From: Thermaurantimonas aggregans
GTDB taxonomy: Bacteria > Bacteroidota > Bacteroidia > Flavobacteriales > Schleiferiaceae
Direction: 5' to 3'
DNA: 43,436 bases
Assembly (NCBI RefSeq): GCF_003851885.1
Contig: NZ_BHZE01000025.1
Coordinates: forward strand, 1-43,436
The position numbers and the translations under genes are program-made. The notes under the pieces were generated by a model. It searched no databases, was not told the origin of the DNA, and saw only the letters and a program-made list of their open reading frames with translations. Shown piece by piece: positions 1 through 34,484 of the stretch; within the stretch, counting starts at the first letter, position 1; every line of letters starts with the position of its first letter.

Positions 1-1
1 T

Positions 2-109
2 TATCAAATCGAAATCACTACACCCAAGACGAAAGAAACCATTAGCAAAGTAATCCTTTTAACAGAGGAGCAAAAAAAAGTAGCTTCAATCTTCAATTTT
101 GGGTGTTAA
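2..109 (+). CDS. C-terminal fragment of an unidentified protein, possibly a transposase
   Basis: An open frame enters from the left edge and stops at TAA, leaving 35 residues that end in Phe-Asn-Phe-Gly-Cys. The piece is rich in Thr/Lys and ends with a Leu-Thr-Glu-Glu-Gln-Lys-Lys stretch. It reminds me of the C-terminal tail of IS4/IS1634-type DDE transposases of Bacteroidota, but that is recollection of style, not an alignment. Transposase debris would fit the neighbouring decayed defence locus. Being cut by the window edge, it cannot be identified firmly. It could equally be the end of an unrelated protein. Confidence 0.35.
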   Translation, partial: YQIEITTPKTKETISKVILLTEEQKKVASIFNFGC

Positions 110-226
110 AATGCGGAAGTCAGGAGAAAGTATTTTTATAAAAATCTCCTTAGTTAAAAAATTGTAAGTCTTGATCTTAAATGTTTTTTCTTTTGTGATT
201 TTTCTTAAGTTAAGGATAAATTAAAA

Positions 227-2905
227 ATGTTTAAGGTAATGCTTTTAGATAATTAAGACAAGACTCGATGAAAACGATTATTACAGTGTTTATGCGTTTA
301 TCAAATCCAACGTACAAAGAGGTTCATTGTATGTAGTAACAGGCTACTTTTCGATTAATGCACTTGCAGGATGTATTGTGAACTTAAAGATTTGGAGAAT
401 TTTAATTAAATTCTTAGGAATTTAATTTAAGACGAAAATGATGTGAATAAGATCATAGATCTTTTAGAAGGAAATGATGGCATCTCAAGTGGACTGTAAT
501 TAAGTCATTCGGTTAAAAATGCCGTGAATTTTCTTAACCAGCAAAAAGTTTAAGTTAAAAATATTCAGAAAAATTTTTGCCATGCGAAAATGTATATTTA
601 TTCAGATAAATAAAAAACTAAAAACTTTTTGATTTTAGGAAGTTCTAATTTAACTGATGCAGGGTTGGTTAAATAAGATAGTTTGAATATTTAATTAAAT
701 ATCACAAAACTCGATTATGAAGATGAATTTAAAAATTAAATAAATTGGTTTAATGAACAATGGGATTAGATAACTATTGATACTATTCAACTAAAAGATA
801 AATCAAAGAAAAAAGTTAAAATTATTATACCGATTTTAATATAAAATCTATAAAAAACACACTCCTCATGACTTATACTACAAAGTTCTGTATGAGATGT
901 TTAAGGATGATCTTATTCATCATTCTATTGATATTGAATTTAAAAGAGAAATAGCTCATTTATAAGAAACTACTATTTTTATAACACTTTATTCCCATCA
1001 ACAAAAGGGTGTTGTCAATTTAATTAAAATGCTTCAAAAATGTAATGGGATAATTTTAAATTGTATAGTGGGTTTAGGTAAAACTTGGACTGTCTGTTTT
1101 GTAATGAAATATTTTGAAGTAAAGGGCTATAAAGTTCTCTTATTATGTCTAAAACAATTTTCAAATAACTAGCAGTAGTAAAGAGTTGGTAATCGAAGCA
1201 TATTTAATAGAGATGAAATAGACTATTACATACGTTAATATACCGATTTACAAAAAGGTGATTTGATCGATATAATGCTAAAAGTCTTCGTATCTTTCAT
1301 TCTCTACCGAAATTTTTAATCGTAATTGATAAAAGTCATAATTTACGTAATGATAAAACTTCTCGTTATATGTTTTTAATTGAGAATTAACTATTACCAA
1401 GTGTTACAAGTAGATATGTTAATGTTTTACTTTTTTCGGCAAAATCTATCAATAATAAATTGATAGATATTCAAAATCAATTCAAACTTATTGCAAGAGG
1501 AAAAGGTGATGGGTTAAGAATACAGACCTAGAAGTTATTAGTCTCGAAAGTATTTTTAAAAATGTACATAAAGAATTTAACAAATGGGAAAAATAAAGAT
1601 AAAATAATTGCTGGCTTTACTTCAAAAAAGTCAAAGAAATTCGTAAATTTAGCAGATTCACTTAATGTTGCAAGGACTCGAAAACTCATCGAAGGAGAAT
1701 TTGGTCAATTAAATTTTCTAAAAAAGGAAGCACCTATTAATGAATAAGTTACACATGAAAATATAGGTAATTTAAAATTTTTTGTCGATATTCTAAATGA
1801 AATTAGTATTAATCTGACTGCATACAGACCAGCTGATTATATTTCTGATGAGGCATCTAAAAGTGTTTTGGAAGATAAGAAACAGCGCTAAATGTTCTTG
1901 TAAAAAGAATGTATATCCTTCTTATAAAAGTTTGGAGTCTAGTTAATTTGCTTTCGAAAGAACAGTTTAAAATATCTTGCAACATCATCAAAATAGACTG
2001 TAAAAGGTAAATATTTATCTTTAATATAAAAAAGACTTCGACTTGAGTGAGGACTTTTTTCGAGGAAGAAAAAGAAGAAATCGAAGAAACTGCTGCTGAA
2101 ATCGATGAACCTGATAATGAGGAATAAAAATTTACTTTAGGAAAAAAAATGCCGATAAACTTATCTGAATTAAGCATTATTAATCTTATTAGAAATCATT
2201 TAGAAAAAGATATAAAATAATTAATAATTCATAAAGATATTCCTGGTCTTTATAAAAGTGATTTTAACTCTTGATTGATTACTGATCCAAAGTTAGAAAG
2301 GCTTATATTCTTTTAAAAATAAAAAAAAGACAATAAATAAAAACGTTTAAATCTTTACTGATTACATAGATACTTGAAAGTTTCTTTACAACGAATTATT
2401 ATATTACGTGTTTAAAATATTGCATATATTTCTGGAACAATTACTGAAATATATAACGTATATTAAGGAGAGAATTTTGAACCATTCTTAGAACGATTTA
2501 TTTCCTATACATAACTTTACAAAAAGAAAGAATGAACCGAGCTTTATGAAAAAACAGTTCACGTGATTTATTTGATGAACTTGGCAAGTGGTTTGATTCT
2601 TATTAAGAATGAAAAAATATCATTAAAGAAAATGATAAGAAAAACTGGCTAATAATAATGAATCCTATAAATGTTTTAGTTGCTTCTGATTGCTTAAGTG
2701 AAGGTCAAACTTTACAAGATTGAGATTATGTGATTATTTATAATATTCGTTAGAATCCAGTTCGTTTGAAATTAAAAATGGGATATATTGACTTCTTATC
2801 CTGTTCTATTAAAAGCGATTAAGGAATCCATTTATGGCCTTAAGAAAATATGAAGATTATTTAAATCAAAAATCTCGTGCTGAGTGCACAGGCATAAGAG
2901 TCACA
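227..2905 (+). pseudogene. Decayed PLD-domain/SNF2-type DEAD-like helicase (defence-type)
   Basis: Stitching the three forward frames recovers a nearly full-length helicase of the type that carries an N-terminal phospholipase-D-like domain. The PLD signature His-Ala-Lys is at 581, followed by Gly-Ser-Ser-Asn-Leu-Thr at 638-655. Walker A (GLGKTW) is at 1071-1088. The DESH box has become DKSH at 1328-1339, and a SATPINN-like motif reads SAKSINN at 1436-1456. An SEGQ-like motif and the NPVRL motif VI region lie at 2679-2770. The frame is broken by more than 20 stop codons and several single-base indels, so no functional product is possible. The longest surviving open piece is about 61 codons (1562-1747). 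Such helicases usually sit beside an adenine methyltransferase in restriction or DISARM/BREX-like loci, and a methyltransferase relic follows here. Base composition is much more AT-rich than the core genes downstream. Confidence 0.78.
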
Positions 2906-3086: not shown

Positions 3087-3098
3087 AAAACTCATTAA

Positions 3099-3422
3099 CT
3101 CTGTGTAACTCTGTGCCCTCAGTGGATGAAAAAAACCACCACGGAGAACTCAGAGTGCACGGAGAGGAAAATGAAAAAACTCTGTGTAACTCTGTGCCCT
3201 CAGTGGATGAAAAAAACCACCACGGAGAACTCAGAGTGCACGGAGAGGAAAATGAAAAAACTCTGTGTAACTCCGTGCCCACTGTGGTTAAAAAAAACCA
3301 CGACAGAGAACTCAGAGTGCACGGAGAGGAAAATGAAAAAACTCTGTGTAACTCTGTGCCCACTGTGGTTAAAAAAAACCACGACAGAGAACTCAGAGTG
3401 CATAGAGGGAAAATTGAAAAAA
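3099..3422 (+). repeat. Tandem array of four 81-bp hairpin-forming units (left array)
   Basis: The word CTCTGTGTAACT recurs at 3099, 3180, 3261 and 3342, and a degenerate copy begins at 3423. The period is therefore exactly 81 bp. Each unit holds two partly complementary arms of about 30 bp around an A-run: the left arm ends in GTGG(T/A)T and the right arm begins with ACCAC. Each could fold as a long imperfect hairpin. Units 1-2 carry CAGTGGATG and CCACCACGGAG, while units 3-4 carry CACTGTGGTTA and CCACGACAGAG, so two subtypes occur in blocks. Because 81 is a multiple of three, several frames stay open through the array on both strands. I regard those frames as by-products. The array stops about 60 bp before the GxxExxY gene. 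Confidence 0.93.
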
Positions 3423-3484
3423 CTCCTTACTCAATTTGGTAAAAAAATAATACATTTGAATTATAAAACTAAAAATGGAAGTAA

Positions 3485-3856
3485 ATGATAGAAAATGAAA
3501 TCACAGATAAAATCATTGGATGTGCTTTAGAAGTACATAAGTTTTTAGGTCCTGGGTTGCTAGAGAGCGCATATGAAGAGTGCTTATATTATGAATTAAA
3601 AAGCTCAGGAATAGAAGTAAGAAAGCAGGTCGTTTTGCCAGTAGTTTATAAAGGAATCAAGCTCAATGCTGGATATCGAATTGATTTATTGGTAGAGAAT
3701 AAAGTTATTGTTGAAATTAAATCTGTTGATGCCATTTTAGACATTCACAAAGCACAACTCATGACTTACATGAAATTGGCAAGTATTAAAGTTGGTTTGT
3801 TGATGAATTTTAATGTAAAGTTGTTAAAAGAAGGAGTAGTTCGTTGGATTATTTAG
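3485..3856 (+). CDS. GxxExxY family protein (PD-(D/E)XK nuclease-like)
   Basis: This 123-residue protein carries the family signature Gly24-x-x-Glu27-x-x-Tyr30. It also has a core resembling the PD-(D/E)XK fold, with Asp67 at the start of a strand, Glu77-Ile-Lys79 on the next, and Gln91 to Tyr95 on the following helix. The length matches the family, which averages about 125 residues. No biochemical function is established as far as I know. The nuclease fold suggests a nucleic-acid-processing role, possibly tied to the surrounding repeats. The gene stands alone between two arrays of the same hairpin repeat. It is fully intact while the helicase and methyltransferase to its left are ruined, which suggests it is maintained or recently acquired. 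There is no signal peptide or membrane segment. Confidence 0.88.
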
Positions 3857-3910: not shown

Positions 3911-4339
3911 CCCTGAGCCCACTGTGGTTAAAAAAAAAACCACGACAGAGAACTCAGAGTGCACTGAGAGGAAAATGAAAAAACTCTGTTAACTCCGTGC
4001 CCATTGTGGTTAAAAAAAAACCATGACAGAGAACTCAGAGTGCACTGAGAGGAAAATGAAAAAACTCTGTTAACTCCGTGCCCATTGTGGTTAAAAAAAA
4101 ACCATGACAGAGAACTCAGAGTGCACGTAGAGGAAAATGAAAAAAACTCTGTGTAACTCTGAGCCCACTGTGGTTGAAAAAAAACCATGACAGAGAACTC
4201 AGAGTGCACGTAGAGGAAAATGAAAAAACTCTGTGTAACTCTGTGCCCTCAGTGGTTAAAAAAAACCACCACGGAGAACTCAGAGTGCACGTAGAGGAAA
4301 ATGAAAAAACTCTGTGTAACTCTGTGCCCACTGTGGTTT
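3911..4339 (+). repeat. Tandem array of five ~81-83-bp hairpin-forming units (right array)
   Basis: The same repeat as in the left array recurs in the same orientation. The core CC(A/T)(C/T)TGTGGTT or CCTCAGTGGTT falls at about 3918, 4000, 4081, 4164, 4246 and 4327, giving spacings of 81 to 83 bp. Length differences come mainly from A-run and T-run changes and a missing GT in the CTCTGTTAACT variants. Three subtypes of right arm are visible: GCACTGAGAGG in the first two units, GCACGTAGAGG in the later ones, and a CCACCACGGAG unit near the right end. The array ends abruptly in TTTATAAAACACAG, just before the stop of the carboxypeptidase gene on the other strand. Confidence 0.92.
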
Positions 4340-4369
4340 ATAAAACACAGAAGAATAAAATTTCATTCA

Positions 4370-18800: not shown

Positions 18801-19814
18801 TTGGGCGTGCTTAATCCGAATTTTAAATACCATCCCAGCGAGCTGCCATCGGCAGATGAACTTTTTGAAGCTTTAAAAAATGGTGACAGGCTTGCTTTGG
18901 CAAGAGCCATTTCGCTTTTAGAAAGCACAAATCCGTCGCATCGAAAGTTGGCAGCAGAACTCATACGCCGAAGCGTGGAGGTAAAAACGGATACGCTGCG
19001 TATCGGAATCTCGGGCGTACCGGGCGTAGGAAAGAGCACATTTATCGAGGCATTCGGCAATTTTTTGATCGATGAATTTGGTTACCGAGTGGCTGTATTG
19101 GCCATTGATCCCAGCAGTCAAACGGGTGGCGGAAGCATTATGGGCGATAAAACGCGTATGGCTCGCTTAGCTTCAAGGCCAGAGGCCTTTATACGCCCTA
19201 GTCCATCTGGAAATCAACTGGGCGGTGTGAATCGCACCACGCGTGAGTCGTTGCTTCTGTGCGAAGCAGCAGGTTTCGACGTCATTTTGGTCGAAACAGT
19301 GGGTGTGGGACAAAGCGAAACTGCCGTTTATCATCTCACCGACTTTTTTATGGTTCTAATGCTGGCAAATGCCGGTGATGAACTCCAGGGCATCAAGCGC
19401 GGCATCATGGAACTCGCCCATTTGGTGGTGATTAACAAAGCTGATGGAGAAAACCTTACAGCCGCTCGAAGGGCAGCTGCAGAATATGCCCGAGCCCTGC
19501 ACCTTCTGCAAGCCGGACAGTCGCAATGGAGCCCGCATGTTTGTACGGCAAGTGCTTTGACAGGCGCCGGAATGGCTCAGGTATACGACTTCATCGACCA
19601 GTATCGACGTCTGACACATGCCACCGGATACTGGAAGCAAAATCGCCTTTTGCAGCAGAGCTATTGGTATGAGCAAGCCATTGCCAGCGCATGGAGATAT
19701 TTCTTGCAAAAGAATCCGGAGAAGTTTCAAATCTATCAGCACTTAAAATCCTTAGTGGAGTCTGGTGAGGTCGATCCTTTTTTAGCTGCTGAAGAACTCT
19801 TTGAGGATTTGTAA
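18801..19814 (+). CDS. meaB: Methylmalonyl-CoA mutase-associated GTPase MeaB
   Basis: A G3E-family P-loop GTPase that gates adenosylcobalamin delivery to, and protects, methylmalonyl-CoA mutase. Walker A is Gly-Val-Pro-Gly-Val-Gly-Lys-Ser-Thr. The family motif Ala-Ile-Asp-Pro-Ser-Ser follows, then Gly-Asp-Lys-Thr-Arg-Met, the switch segment Glu-Thr-Val-Gly-Val-Gly-Gln-Ser-Glu, and the base-recognition Asn-Lys-Ala-Asp. The C-terminal dimerisation helices are present, and 337 residues is usual. No ATG suits the start. I use the TTG at 18801, with GTG at 18807 the alternative, so the N-terminus is uncertain by a few residues. Its partners MutA and MutB are encoded 10-13 kb upstream. The gene diverges from the deaminase. 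Confidence 0.93.
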   Translation: MGVLNPNFKYHPSELPSADELFEALKNGDRLALARAISLLESTNPSHRKLAAELIRRSVEVKTDTLRIGISGVPGVGKSTFIEAFGNFLIDEFGYRVAVLAIDPSSQTGGGSIMGDKTRMARLASRPEAFIRPSPSGNQLGGVNRTTRESLLLCEAAGFDVILVETVGVGQSETAVYHLTDFFMVLMLANAGDELQGIKRGIMELAHLVVINKADGENLTAARRAAAEYARALHLLQAGQSQWSPHVCTASALTGAGMAQVYDFIDQYRRLTHATGYWKQNRLLQQSYWYEQAIASAWRYFLQKNPEKFQIYQHLKSLVESGEVDPFLAAEELFEDL

Positions 19815-25618: not shown

Positions 25619-26146
25619 TTATCGGCGAATGCCTTCTAATAGAATCTGATAGGCTCTTTGTAGATCTTTTTCTTTCTCATTGTCTGAAGAAAAGACAATT
25701 GCACCTGAAATCATCATGATCAGCAGGGTCAGATCTTTATCGACATTAAAATCACTTCGGATTTTTTTGCTTTTTAAGGTACATTCGGCTAAGGGTTTGA
25801 AAATAGCTAACAAGCGAAGGAGAAATGTTTTTCCAGGGTCATGGAGATAGAGTGATAATTCGTGAAAGTACATGTGCATATTGGCAGTTACCAAAAGCAG
25901 CTTTTCAAAACCCCGTTCATCACACTCAAGTCTTTTTGCATACCATGTTAACATATCGAGGTTTCGTTCGAAGATTCCATGAATCAAATCTGTTTTACTT
26001 GAAAAGTGCCGGTAGAAAGTAATGCGTGAAAGCCCAGAATGTTTGATTATGTCACTTAGCGTCACCTGCGGTCCTTCTTTCATAAAAAGCTTTCTGGCTA
26101 TGCGAATGATGGTGTGTCGGCTGTGTTCTGCATCGGATCGCTTCAT
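25619..26146 (-). CDS. TetR family transcriptional regulator
   Basis: A 175-residue one-component repressor-type protein. The N-terminal helix-turn-helix reads Val-Thr-Leu-Ser-Asp-Ile-Ile-Lys-His-Ser-Gly-Leu-Ser-Arg, then Thr-Phe-Tyr-Arg-His-Phe-Ser-Ser-Lys. Both are hallmark TetR sequences. The helical C-terminal domain is a little short and not assignable to a ligand class. It is divergent from the flavoprotein/SDR genes, and a 31-bp palindrome lies between them. It therefore most likely controls that cluster and itself, with a lipid- or steroid-like ligand as a guess from the neighbours. Confidence 0.93.
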   Translation of the reverse strand: MKRSDAEHSRHTIIRIARKLFMKEGPQVTLSDIIKHSGLSRITFYRHFSSKTDLIHGIFERNLDMLTWYAKRLECDERGFEKLLLVTANMHMYFHELSLYLHDPGKTFLLRLLAIFKPLAECTLKSKKIRSDFNVDKDLTLLIMMISGAIVFSSDNEKEKDLQRAYQILLEGIRR

Positions 26147-26166
26147 GAGAAAGTTTTTTTAAAAAC

Positions 26167-26197
26167 TGATAAATGTTACAATATGTTTCATTTATCA
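26167..26197. promoter_or_regulatory. Palindromic candidate TetR operator
   Basis: A 31-bp sequence with arms TGATAAATG and CATTTATCA that match perfectly over 9 bp; 12 of 15 possible pairs are complementary across the whole site. It lies 20 bp upstream of the tetR-type start and 38 bp upstream of the flavoprotein start, exactly where a divergent-promoter operator is expected. Long interrupted palindromes of this kind are typical TetR targets. Confidence 0.65.
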
Positions 26198-26235
26198 ATT
26201 TTTTTTTTACATCGGAAAACAAAAAAACAAACATC

Positions 26236-27894
26236 ATGAAAAATACTCAATGGGACAAAACCTACGACGTAGTCGTAGTAGGCAGCGGTGCAGGAGCTCT
26301 TACTGCTGCTCTCACTGCAATTCATCAGGGATTACGTGTTGTAATTCTTGAAAAAACTGCCTAATGGGGCGGATCCTCCGCTTATTCTGGCGGTGGACTC
26401 TGGATACCCGCTAATTTTCTGATGAAAAAAGCCGGGGCACTTGACTCACCCGAAGAGGCTCTGGAGTACATGAATGCCGTAATAGGGGAAGTAGGCCCTG
26501 CTAGTACAGAGGAAAAGCGCAAAATCTTTCTCAAGTTCGGCCCGGAAATGGTCGATTGGCTCACTTCACTTGGATTTAAATGGGTACGGGCACACTTGTA
26601 TCCGGATTATTATCCAAATGTGAAAGGTGCCAAAACAGGTCGTGTAATCGAAGGAGCTGTATTTGACGGTAAAAAGCTTGGCCCTCTGGCGAAGAGTCTG
26701 AACAAAGCGCCCGGTATGCCTGACATTGCTCTCAAATCCGGCGATGCATACCTGCTGCCGATGGTGACTCGTAGCTGGAAAGGATTTAGTACCATGATGC
26801 GTATCTTGGGTCAAACTTTGCAGTGGAAACTTACCGGAAAACAGCCGCTTACCCTTGGTCGGTCTTTATGTGGACAACTGATGTACCTCATTCAGAAAAA
26901 ACAGCCTACAGAAGTATGGCTCAATTCACCTCTTAAGGAAATCATCAGCGATGGAGATTCTGTAGTGGGTGTAGTAGTTGAACGCGACGGTAAGGCCACA
27001 AAAATCAAGGCAGAAAAAGCAATCATCTTGGCTGCAGGAGGTTTTCCGCACAATAAAGAAATGCGCAAAAAATACCACGGTCTGGATCAAGAGTGGTCAT
27101 CAGCTACTCCCGGAAATACAGGTGATGCCATTACCGCAGCTGAGTCGATAGGGGCTGCTACCGATCTGATGGACGACGCATGGTGGGGTGCAAGTTTTAT
27201 TCTCGATGGCAAAATCAACTTTTCCGTAACTGAGCGTTCGATGCCCGGTTGTATCCTGGTAGATCAGGATGGATTTCGCTTTGCCAATGAGTCTACATCT
27301 TATGTCGATCTTGGACATAGGATTTTAGAACACCACCGCAATACTGGTAAAGCCATTCCCTGCTGGCTCATTATGGATGGGTTATACCGAAAGAGATATC
27401 TTTTTGGCATGATGCCGCCAGGTCTTACTCCGAAGAAATTTATTAGAAATGGCGAAATCATTAAAGCCGATTCGCTGGAATCTTTGGCTAGACAATGCAA
27501 TATACCGTATGATAATTTGAAAGCTACCTTGGTGAGATTTAACAGTTTTGCTCTGCATGGCAAGGATGAAGACTTCGGTCGTGGTCAGGATATATATGAC
27601 AGATATTATTCCGACGACTTTATCCGACCAAACAGCAATTTGGCACCCATCACAACCCCCCCCTTTTATGCCATCCGATTCTACCCAGGCGATTTAGGTA
27701 CTAAGGGAGGCTTGCTAACAGATGAATTTGCAAGGGTGCTCAGAAAAGATGGAACAGCAATAAAAAATCTCTATGCGACAGGAAATACCACAGCTTCAGT
27801 GATGGGTCGCACCTACCCCGGTCCAGGTTCTACATTAGGTCCGGCCTGTACCTTCGGATACATTGCTGTAAAACACCTAACAAATACATTATGA
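26236..27894 (+). pseudogene. KstD-like FAD-dependent dehydrogenase interrupted by one in-frame TAA
   Basis: A flavoprotein of the fumarate reductase/3-ketosteroid Delta1-dehydrogenase superfamily, 552 codons if the TAA at 26362-26364 is read through. The N-terminal FAD motif (Val-Val-Gly-Ser-Gly-Ala-Gly-Ala and Val-Ile-Leu-Glu-Lys-Thr-Ala) lies before the stop. The family motif Trp-Gly-Gly-Ser-Ser-Ala-Tyr-Ser-Gly-Gly-Gly-Leu-Trp follows directly. No other damage is visible, and the C-terminal Thr-Gly-Asn-Thr-Thr-Ala, Tyr-Pro-Gly-Pro-Gly-Ser motif is intact. The stop replaces a residue that is usually Lys or similar. Re-initiation at the ATG at 26422 would give 490 residues without FAD-binding motif. 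It may be a fresh nonsense mutation, a sequencing error or readthrough. The downstream SDR overlaps by ATGA. Substrate is not assignable. Confidence 0.8.
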
Positions 27895-28682
27895 AAATCT
27901 CCGGTAAAGTCTGGGCTGTAACCGGTGCCGCCAGTGGCATCGGTTTAGCATTGAGCCGCGAAATTTTATCTCGTGGTGGAAAAGTGGCCTTGATCGATAT
28001 TGCGGACGAAGCCTTGCGGCAAGCAGAGAAAACGTTAAATGTTCCCTCAAGTATCAGTATTCACAAAGCTGATGTGTCAGACATCGATCGCATTCGAGAA
28101 CTTCCCAGTGAAATCATTCAAAAACACGGTCAAATTGACGGGCTGGTAAACAATGCTGGTATCATTCAGCCGTTCGTGGACTTTGTTGAATTACCAGATG
28201 AGAAAATTTTAAAAATTCTACAGGTCAATTTAATAAGTGTTGTGCATTTGACTCGCATCTTTTATCCACACATAAAAGCTCGACCCGAGGCTCACCTTGT
28301 AAATGTGAGCAGTATGGGGGGGGTATTTCCCTTTCCGGGACAAACGTGGTATGGAGCAACGAAATCCGCAGTAAAACTTCTGACCGAAGGCATGTACGCC
28401 GAGCTGTTGAATTCATCAATCAAGGTGACACTGGTAATACCCGGAGCAGTGAAAACCAACATCGTGCAAAACTCCGGCGTGAGCATGTCTACACCACAAC
28501 CAGCTAAAAATCAAAAAACACTAACCGCCGAAGAAGCTGCTTTGAAAATATGTAATGCCATTGAGAAAAATCAATTCAGACTACTACTCGGCAGAGAAGC
28601 TAAAATGCTTGATGTTTTATATCGACTGATGCCGGAAAGATCCATTGGAATAATTGCCCGCCGAATGAAGAAAATTTTTTAA
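27891..28682 (+). CDS. Short-chain dehydrogenase/reductase (SDR)
   Basis: A classical NAD(P)-dependent SDR of 263 residues. The coenzyme motif is Thr-Gly-Ala-Ala-Ser-Gly-Ile-Gly; Asn-Asn-Ala-Gly follows the fourth strand. The catalytic residues are Ser in Val-Ser-Ser-Met-Gly and Tyr-Gly-Ala-Thr-Lys (YxxxK). Asp after the second strand (Leu-Ile-Asp-Ile) points to NAD preference. It overlaps the KstD-like gene by 4 bp (ATGA), so the two were built to be translated together. Its substrate is probably the same lipid or ketosteroid-like compound. The stop lies 30 bp from the convergent lipase gene. Confidence 0.92.
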   Translation: MKISGKVWAVTGAASGIGLALSREILSRGGKVALIDIADEALRQAEKTLNVPSSISIHKADVSDIDRIRELPSEIIQKHGQIDGLVNNAGIIQPFVDFVELPDEKILKILQVNLISVVHLTRIFYPHIKARPEAHLVNVSSMGGVFPFPGQTWYGATKSAVKLLTEGMYAELLNSSIKVTLVIPGAVKTNIVQNSGVSMSTPQPAKNQKTLTAEEAALKICNAIEKNQFRLLLGREAKMLDVLYRLMPERSIGIIARRMKKIF

Positions 28683-30978: not shown

Positions 30979-31533
30979 TTATTTAGGTAATAAAGTTAAG
31001 TATTCTGCAGCCTCTGAAAGAAGTTCCTCACCATCACTTTCTCGAATGGTAAATTCTTTCTCGTCTGATAAATTAACCTCTTTTAAGACTGCATCATTAT
31101 TAAAATAGTACATTTTATCAATTCCTTTATTGCGATCTTCTGAATCTTCTACTCCTGAATCTCTGATTATTGCTAAAATCAGTTTTCCATCATAAAAATA
31201 AAATTCTTCAGTGCGTTTTGAAATATTTTCATAAGGATAAGTTTTGATACGGATTACAGAATTACCATCTAAATAGTAATGAATTTTTTGCCATTTTTGC
31301 TTGATTTTTTCTCTTAGATTTTCGGTCAAAAGTTCGATTCGGTTGTCTTTTTTATCTTCTGCAAGTGCTCTTTTAGAATCTATAAATTCAATGAGCGAAT
31401 CAATTTGCTCCTTGGATAATCTCACCTCCGATTCTTCTTCAGCTGTATTTGCTACGTTTTCATCTGCAGTGGGAGTTGTGGTGCAGGAATACATTACAAT
31501 TAAAAGCAAACCTGATAAAATAAGTGACTTCAT
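30979..31533 (-). CDS. Lipoprotein of unknown function
   Basis: A 184-residue protein with a lipoprotein signal peptide: Met-Lys-Ser-Leu, a Leu/Ile run, and lipobox Val-Met-Tyr-Ser-Cys17. An acidic, Thr/Glu-rich linker follows. The rest is a charged helical segment (Glu-Asp-Lys-Lys-Asp-Asn) and a short beta-rich region with Tyr-Phe-Tyr-Asp-Gly-Lys-Leu, typical of small Bacteroidota lipoproteins. I do not recognise a named family. I chose the ATG at 31533 because it begins the signal peptide; an upstream start would add 24 residues that mask it. TACATTTG lies 17 bp upstream of this start. Confidence 0.72.
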   Translation of the reverse strand: MKSLILSGLLLIVMYSCTTTPTADENVANTAEEESEVRLSKEQIDSLIEFIDSKRALAEDKKDNRIELLTENLREKIKQKWQKIHYYLDGNSVIRIKTYPYENISKRTEEFYFYDGKLILAIIRDSGVEDSEDRNKGIDKMYYFNNDAVLKEVNLSDEKEFTIRESDGEELLSEAAEYLTLLPK

Positions 31534-31550
31534 TGGTTTTAATTTTAAAT

Positions 31551-31558
31551 CAAATGTA
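31551..31558 (-). promoter_or_regulatory. Candidate -7 box of the lipoprotein gene
   Basis: TACATTTG on the minus strand, identical to the box before the neighbouring response regulator, ends 17 bp upstream of the lipoprotein start. No well-spaced -33 TTTG is evident. Confidence 0.4.
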
Positions 31559-31759
31559 TACATATCGCCACAAATGAGATACTTACATTGGGTAACAAAA
31601 CACAATTTTTTTTGTAAATTACATATTTTAATAAATAATTTACTAAAATTAATTCATGACCAAAAGATGTAAACTGTGATGGAAGTCAATGTGTTTACTA
31701 TTTGTGGTCAAGTACCTTAATTTTTTTTTAATTAAGATATGGTGCATACACCTGTTATC

Positions 31760-32483: not shown

Positions 32484-34484
32484 ATGAAGTTGGATTCAAA
32501 AATTCCAGGAGGTCCATTAGAAGAAAAATGGACTCGCTACAAGGGTTCGGTAAACCTTGTAAGCCCTGCTAATAAGCGCAAGTTAGACATTATCGTTGTT
32601 GGTACCGGTTTAGCTGGCGCATCGGCTGCTGCATCACTGGCTGAGCTCGGTTATAATGTAAAAGCCTTCTGCTTTCAAGATTCGCCTCGAAGAGCCCACT
32701 CCATAGCTGCACAAGGTGGTATAAATGCTGCGAAAAATTACCAAAACGACGGTGACAGCGTTTACAGGCTTTTTTACGATACCATAAAAGGTGGCGACTA
32801 CCGTTCACGCGAGGCCAATGTGTATCGATTGGCTGAAGTTTCAGCTAACATCATAGACCAGTGCGTGGCTCAGGGTGTACCTTTTGCACGCGATTACGGC
32901 GGATTGCTCGACAACCGTTCATTCGGGGGAACTCAAGTTAGCCGAACTTTTTATGCCAAGGGTCAGACTGGTCAGCAACTTTTATTAGGAGCTTATTCAG
33001 CTTTGAGCCGCCAGATTGCCAAAGGTACCGTGAAGATGTACGCTCGCCATGAGATGCTCGATGTAGTGGTGATCGATGGTAAAGCCAGAGGTATAATCGC
33101 ACGTAATCTGGTAACTGGTGAAATCGAGCGCCACGGAGCTCACGCTGTGATTTTGGCTACAGGTGGTTATGGCAATGTGTATTACCTCTCTACAAATGCG
33201 ATGGGCAGCAATGGATCAGCGGCATGGAAAGCGCATAAAAAGGGAGCACTCTTTGCCAATCCGTGCTTTACGCAAATTCACCCCACTTGCATTCCGCAAT
33301 CTGGCGAGTACCAGAGCAAGCTTACGCTCATGTCCGAATCTCTGCGAAATGACGGTCGTATTTGGGTGCCAAAAGACCGAAAAGATGCTGAACTTCTTAG
33401 ACAAGGCAAATTAAAACCCACTGACATTCCTGAGGAAAAAAGAGACTACTACCTTGAGAGAAGATACCCTGCCTTTGGTAACCTGGTACCACGCGATGTG
33501 GCGAGTCGTGCAGCCAAGGAGCGTTGCGATGAAGGCTATGGTGTCAATCCTACGGGTAAGGCAGTGTATCTTGACTTTGAAAGCGCTATAATGCGCTATG
33601 GGCAGATCGAGGCCAATCTACAAGGTATTAAAAATCCATCTCCGGAAAAAATTCGTCAGTTAGGTGAAAAAATCATCGAAGCCAAATACGGCAATCTTTT
33701 CCAGATGTATGAAAAGATTACCGACATCAATCCATACAAGAGTCCAATGATGATTTACCCTGCTGTGCACTACACTATGGGAGGCATCTGGGTAGATTAC
33801 GAGCTGATGACTACCATTCCTGGTCTCTTTGCGTTAGGTGAAGCAAACTTCTCAGACCATGGAGCTAACAGATTGGGAGCTTCTGCACTAATGCAAGGCC
33901 TTGCCGATGGATATTTCATCATACCTTATACAATTGGAAACTACCTCTCTGGTGAGATTAGAAGTGGAAAGGTGGATACAAATGCCCCAGAGTTCGAAAC
34001 TGCTGAAAAAGCCGCTCGCGAGCGAATCTCGCACTTCCTTGGCAATAACGGTAAGACATCCGTCGATACCTTCCACCGCGAGTTGGGCAAAATCATGTGG
34101 GATAAGTGCGGTATGAGCCGCAATGCGCAGGGACTTCAAGAGGCTATTCGTGAAATTCAAGCTCTTCGCGAGGAGTTCTGGAAAGATGTGAAGGTACCAG
34201 GCAGAGCCGATATGTACAATCCGGAGCTCGACAAAGCTGGAAGAGTGGCTGACTTCCTCGAGCTTGGAGAGCTTATGTGTCTCGACGCTCTGCATAGAAA
34301 TGAAAGTTGTGGTGGCCACTTCAGAGAAGAATATCAGACCGAAGATGGCGAAGCCCTGAGAAACGATGCGGAATACGCCTATGTAGCAGCATGGGAGTAC
34401 ACCGGTAAACCATCTGAAGCTGTTTTGCACAAAGAACAACTTGTATTCGAAAATGTTGAATTAAAGACTCGCAGTTACAAATAA
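32484..34484 (+). CDS. sdhA: Succinate dehydrogenase/fumarate reductase flavoprotein subunit
   Basis: The 666-residue catalytic subunit binds FAD covalently at His72 ([10 protein letters not shown]) after the Gly-Thr-Gly-Leu-Ala-Gly dinucleotide motif. It interconverts succinate and fumarate. Further family features are the His-Pro-Thr segment (Gln-Ile-His-Pro-Thr), Tyr-Thr-Met-Gly-Gly-Ile-Trp-Val-Asp, and [10 protein letters not shown] near the active site. The length fits the b558-type long SdhA. It lies between sdhC (11 bp) and sdhB (14 bp) in one unit. The direction in vivo cannot be told from sequence. Confidence 0.97.

Follow-up and report, generated by a model that had tools for sequence, protein, structure and literature searches.

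A single in-frame TAA in a 3-ketosteroid dehydrogenase-like gene of Thermaurantimonas aggregans, probably a recent nonsense allele

Steroid dehydrogenases of the KstD type are represented among solved structures by PDB 7p18 (3-oxosteroid 1-dehydrogenase) and PDB 4c3x (3-ketosteroid dehydrogenase), and active-site roles of Tyr119, Tyr318, Tyr487 and Gly491 of KstD1 are described in PMC5348764. Interruption of bacterial coding sequences by in-frame stops is itself a described phenomenon. According to the survey by Belinky et al. 2021 (PMC7918605), such stops are widespread in bacterial genes and mostly short-lived, at the scale of population polymorphism; many of the affected genes are argued, from dN/dS below 1, not to be pseudogenes, and readthrough is argued to be widespread. 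Lowered expression is proposed there as a possible use, and the vast majority of cases are assumed to lack functional recoding.

The locus described here lies in a stretch of 43,436 nucleotides of the T. aggregans genome, referred to below as the window. Its KstD-like frame shares with 7p18 and 4c3x the GxGxxA motif, Glu39 and counterparts of four active-site residues, and differs from them by a TAA at codon 43 and by a score below the cut-off of the family model PRK12844. Like the cases published in PMC7918605, it carries a single stop in an otherwise selected-looking frame, likely short-lived; the stops of that survey, however, are common to orthologues of two or more species, whereas the window stop is seen in one genome only. 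The authors of the survey lean to readthrough for many of their cases, and their view backs readthrough more than our data do. For the window gene we prefer a null allele, because the stop has been seen in a single genome and the orthologues give no hint of a conserved device. Under either reading, the stop is an ordinary further case of the published phenomenon.

The interrupted frame and its gene neighbourhood

The features of the locus are as follows.

26236..27894, plus strand: frame of a KstD-like FAD-dependent dehydrogenase, 552 codons before the final stop, with one interruption
26362..26364, plus strand: in-frame TAA, codon 43 in the frame of the ATG at 26236
26236..26361, plus strand: piece 5' of the stop, 42 codons, with two elements of the dinucleotide fold, Glu39 and GSGAGA (residues 16-21)
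26365..27894, plus strand: piece 3' of the stop, with GGSSAYSGGG and the active-site counterparts Y125, Y356, Y527 and G531
26422..27894, plus strand: longest open reading frame remaining after the stop, 490 amino acids from an ATG, without the FAD dinucleotide motif
27891..28682, plus strand: short-chain dehydrogenase (SDR; adh_short, E 1.1e-47), its start overlapping the end of the KstD-like gene by 4 bases (ATGA)
25619..26146, minus strand: divergent TetR-family regulator (TetR_N, E 2.4e-11)
26161..26203, no strand: imperfect palindrome between the TetR and KstD-like genes, with arms of 20 bases (26161-26180 and 26184-26203), 85% complementary, and a 3-base spacer

At the window GC content of 42%, about 34 stops are expected per 552 random codons, and the probability of finding at most one is 7e-14. 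The single stop therefore marks a genuine coding frame with one interruption, and together with the family matches given below it bears out the preliminary description of a KstD-like flavoprotein with a single in-frame TAA. The position assigned to the stop in that description, between the FAD-binding motif and the next conserved motif, is likewise confirmed: on one side of the TAA lie GSGAGA and Glu39, which belong to the FAD fold, and on the other the GGSSAYSGGG motif. Beyond the TAA the frame is open for 509 codons, up to the TGA at 27892-27894, and the first in-frame ATG, GTG or TTG is found at 26422. The alignment of the read-through frame with two intact orthologues is gap-free at the stop, which indicates that the TAA was created by a substitution and not by an indel; an indel or compensating frameshifts near codon 43 are ruled out by this alignment.

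The read-through frame matches the whole FAD_binding_2 model over residues 11-534 (E 2.5e-79), and the profile search of the own genome, with an E-value of 1.1e-79, places one TAA inside the match. The best NCBIfam model is PRK12844 (3-ketosteroid-delta-1-dehydrogenase), matched over residues 4-550 with 667 bits against a cut-off of 789, so that a 3-ketosteroid is only a putative substrate; none among the best 25 of the 56 NCBIfam families matched by the product reached its cut-off. The closest solved relative is 7p18 (residues 8-549, E 5.6e-120), and 4c3x is matched in two stretches (E 2.5e-93). In the alignment with 4c3x, residues Y125, Y356, Y527 and G531 are the counterparts of Tyr119, Tyr318, Tyr487 and Gly491 of KstD1, with the numbering counted by hand and the 4c3x chain assumed to run 20 ahead of the published numbers, an offset that fits all four residues. 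The frame also contains the GxGxxA/G motif and the acidic residue ending the second strand, as expected of the KstD family, and departs from the expectation of a continuous frame by the TAA at codon 43. Judged by these resemblances, its product is like a 3-ketosteroid delta1-dehydrogenase and is predicted to be a relative of these enzymes.

Two other genomes of the same family, G015 and G016, carry intact KstD orthologues with 63-64% identity to the window copy. In both, the TetR, KstD and SDR genes form a cassette with the same order and orientation as in the window. The SDR counterpart near KstD is 46-47% identical, and the TetR counterpart, in the same divergent place, is 34-35% identical. 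The G015 and G016 cassettes differ from that of the window by an uninterrupted KstD gene and by an extra SDR-like gene (named by eye) between KstD and the shared SDR. At L094 9727-11444 (G016) and L095 6433-8093 (G015), two SDR-like genes follow KstD, and the window holds the counterpart of the second only. The TetR and SDR genes of the window remain open frames, and the overlap with the downstream SDR, noted in the preliminary description, is present, with the SDR ATG at 27891 within ATGA (4 bases). The palindrome at 26161-26203 is a plausible candidate for a TetR operator; in the orthologous intergenic regions of G015 and G016, only different and shorter inverted repeats were found.

Conservation around the stop and the extent of decay

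The window copy was aligned with the two same-family orthologues and with 80 relatives from named genomes, the highest-scoring of 550 that were confirmed, giving 83 rows. All 82 relatives have a sense codon in the column of codon 43, and no internal stop was found in any of them. The flanking motifs are conserved, Gly16, Gly18 and Glu39 being identical in 82 of 82 relatives and two glycines after the stop being invariant, and the four active-site residues are likewise identical in 82/82. The column of the stop has an entropy of 3.02, above that of 98.6% of the 552 columns. The occurrence of the stop in a column of such top variability is a point against random inactivation, with the weight of a single test made after the fact.

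Each row was compared only with relatives less than 60% identical to it, which left 80 of the 82 other rows for the window copy and between 51 and 82 for the rows as a whole; departures were counted where at least 97% of these relatives agree. Of 131 such columns, 9 are changed in the window copy and 12 in either intact same-family orthologue; the window copy also departs at 4 of 81 fully invariant columns, against 6 of 81 in the same-family orthologues. By number of departures it ranks 73rd of the 83 rows, 72 rows having fewer and 10 more, in an alignment dominated by relatives from the densely sampled groups Nocardia, Amycolatopsis and Heimdallarchaeota. Because both intact same-family orthologues depart more, we put this rank down to the remoteness of the lineage, an attribution that falls short of proof. 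Codon use, as mean log frequency, scores -3.93 on the 5' side of the stop and -3.97 on the 3' side, within the range of -3.90 to -4.06 of 27 other open reading frames of the window; the two alternative frames score -4.21 and -4.28. That the remainder of the gene is intact, as the preliminary description had it, holds: there is no second stop, the active-site residues are encoded and the conserved columns carry no more changes than in the two same-family orthologues.

Comparison with the orthologues yields a dN of 0.33 and a pS of 0.75-0.77, with synonymous sites saturated. The resulting dN/dS can therefore reveal only long-term constraint and is unable to date the stop, and the argument for recency rests on the missing second lesions. 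In the downstream part of the gene, 155 of the 509 codons are one change away from a stop, and none has been hit by a second nonsense mutation; given equal rates of all base changes and neutrality, this bounds the neutral divergence since the loss at roughly 4.5%. A disabling lesion in the presence of intact relatives, as in a pseudogene, is found here. Relaxed constraint after the lesion is not, which fits a very recent loss and, equally, an intact or a read-through gene.

Decoding of the stop and the competing explanations

A change of the genetic code is ruled out by the terminators of 27 window open reading frames, which end in TAA in 18 cases and in TGA in the other 9; these frames were hand-picked, and likely genes such as 18801-19814 and 30979-31605 are left out of the count. 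None of the 36 tRNAs found in the own genome (RF00005) has an anticodon reading UAA, and a suppressor tRNA is thus absent from this set, which may be incomplete, with 150 of 177 first-look candidates scored and tRNAs for Ile (GAU) and Ala (UGC) missing. The RNA of 150 bases around the stop folds better than its shuffles (z -3.95). Among 39 sliding stretches, the two lowest (z -4.33 and -4.26) contain the stop and span 26236-26445, the first 70 codons; these z values are approximate, since the control was limited to the KstD and SDR genes, with 60 shuffles per stretch and unfixed seeds. Folding is weaker in a third stretch containing the stop (z -1.51) and in the 100 bases that begin with it (z -1.08), placing the signal mainly in and 5' of the stop. 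Neither orthologue is structured at the same place (z -0.29 and -0.51), and the window has no Rfam match at gathering scores. A pattern scan of 26100-26600 on both strands returned 3 terminator-like sites, against 0.7 expected from shuffles, and no match to a sigma-70-type promoter. One of these sites, a hairpin at 26365-26380 on the plus strand, directly follows the stop, with 5 pairs and a broken T-rich tail; we judge it too weak for an attenuator.

The TAA is probably a recent nonsense mutation in a rare accessory KstD-like gene, with an effectively null allele as the outcome. Translation from 26236 would end after 42 residues, and the resulting peptide would comprise the initial beta-alpha-beta portion of the FAD fold but no catalytic part. 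A protein restarted at 26422 would have 490 residues and retain those of the active site, while lacking both GGSSAYSGGG and the dinucleotide motif. Considering the fold, neither piece would be expected to be active, so that the allele should be effectively null, apart from any trace leakage through the UAA; the neighbouring frames, of the SDR and of the TetR regulator, remain open. From the sequence we infer both the loss of activity and its recency, and within the sampled population the allele may have reached fixation or may still be segregating. The preliminary description had offered four options for the stop (a very recent inactivation, a mixed population, a base-call error and true readthrough), the first of which is the best supported, the relatives being intact and the gene bearing neither excess damage nor a second nonsense codon. 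A mixed population would be one form of the recent nonsense allele and no separate case.

We consider it unlikely, though worth bearing in mind, that the stop is an error of the consensus, that is, a wrong base call or assembly at codon 43 or a merging of strain variants, and that the gene is intact; this estimate is a judgement and not a calculation. The rest of the KstD-like gene looks as if nothing were broken, one substitution is enough to produce the TAA, and the genome is a draft of 57 contigs. On the other side, inner stops occur in none of the genome's 34 ABC-transporter, 16 SDR and 7 other FAD_binding_2 matches, so that false stops do not pervade the assembly, although this is a weak control for a single base given that many of these matches are short, and the error would have to be a substitution, whereas long-read errors are usually indels. 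Functional readthrough, in which the UAA would be passed often enough to supply the full-length enzyme and the stop would tune its level, is very improbable. The selected look of the remainder of the frame agrees with it, the variable column of the stop should tolerate nearly any inserted residue, and the unusually stable RNA fold around the stop (z about -4) is a real hint in its favour. Against these stand the unstructured RNA at the same place in both orthologues, the weaker folding of the third stretch and of the bases from the stop onward, the lack of a UAA-reading tRNA among the 36 found, the use of UAA as the commonest terminator in the window, and the absence of the stop from all 82 relatives (0/82), among which a stop serving readthrough would be expected to be conserved. 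The survey PMC7918605 weighs on both sides, arguing that many in-frame stops are read through, perhaps usefully lowering expression for a time, and assuming that the vast majority lack functional recoding. Slighter still is the chance that the UAA, at one of the codons of the protein most tolerant of substitution and within the loop formed by a stable local hairpin, is passed at a useful rate and acts as a translational damper, a low-expression allele of a costly flavoenzyme being under selection. The least credible reading is a gene fission, with both products, of 42 and 490 residues, made and cooperating. It could draw on the ATG at 26422 and the long downstream frame; the break, however, splits the FAD dinucleotide fold at a point after Glu39 and before the GGSS motif, codons 44-62 (19 residues, including GGSSAYSGGG) belong to neither product, and an internal stop is seen in 0/82 relatives.

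Taken as a recent nonsense allele, the locus adds one more bacterial gene in which a nonsense codon stands alone, with no clear sign of additional decay. In annotation it should be flagged as interrupted, not entered as a shortened enzyme of 490 amino acids. It would gain greater weight only if true UAA readthrough were shown by peptides spanning the stop.

Distribution of the gene and other features of the window

At E 1e-60 or better, 3 of the 88 family genomes examined, among them the own genome, carry a KstD-like gene, as do 3 of 296 in a sample of the order that overlaps the family. In the class and phylum samples, of 395 genomes each, overlapping each other and with at most three candidates scored per genome, the own genome alone carries the gene at this threshold. 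The genus has a single further genome, with a completeness of 70%, in which just a weak partial match was found. Among the best 80 of 550 relatives in the scan of named genomes, no match exceeds 49% identity to the KstD-like protein. By these searches the gene is a rare, accessory and sporadic one in the family. FAD_binding_2 has 8 matches in the own genome, and the whole model is covered only by the KstD-like frame and by a flavoprotein at 32484-34484, which by its sequence we take to be succinate dehydrogenase-like. A paralogue able to stand in for the KstD-like enzyme was rejected on this count.

Elsewhere in the window, two repeat arrays of a similar 81-base unit lie within 3097-3425, 3485-3856 and 3913-4345, with 4.1 and 5.3 copies and 92-95% matches. 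Between the two arrays, a small PD-(D/E)XK-type protein is encoded (PDDEXK_3, E 1.8e-44), of the kind often called GxxExxY. The repeats and the nuclease-like gene may constitute a mobile or repeat-associated unit. The start of the contig (window positions 1-2900) has no Rfam match, and its longest internal frame extends for 112 codons from stop to stop, the remainder of the window being densely coding. Within this region, a short frame at 966-1172 appears by eye to be a fragment of a protein with an ATP-binding motif.
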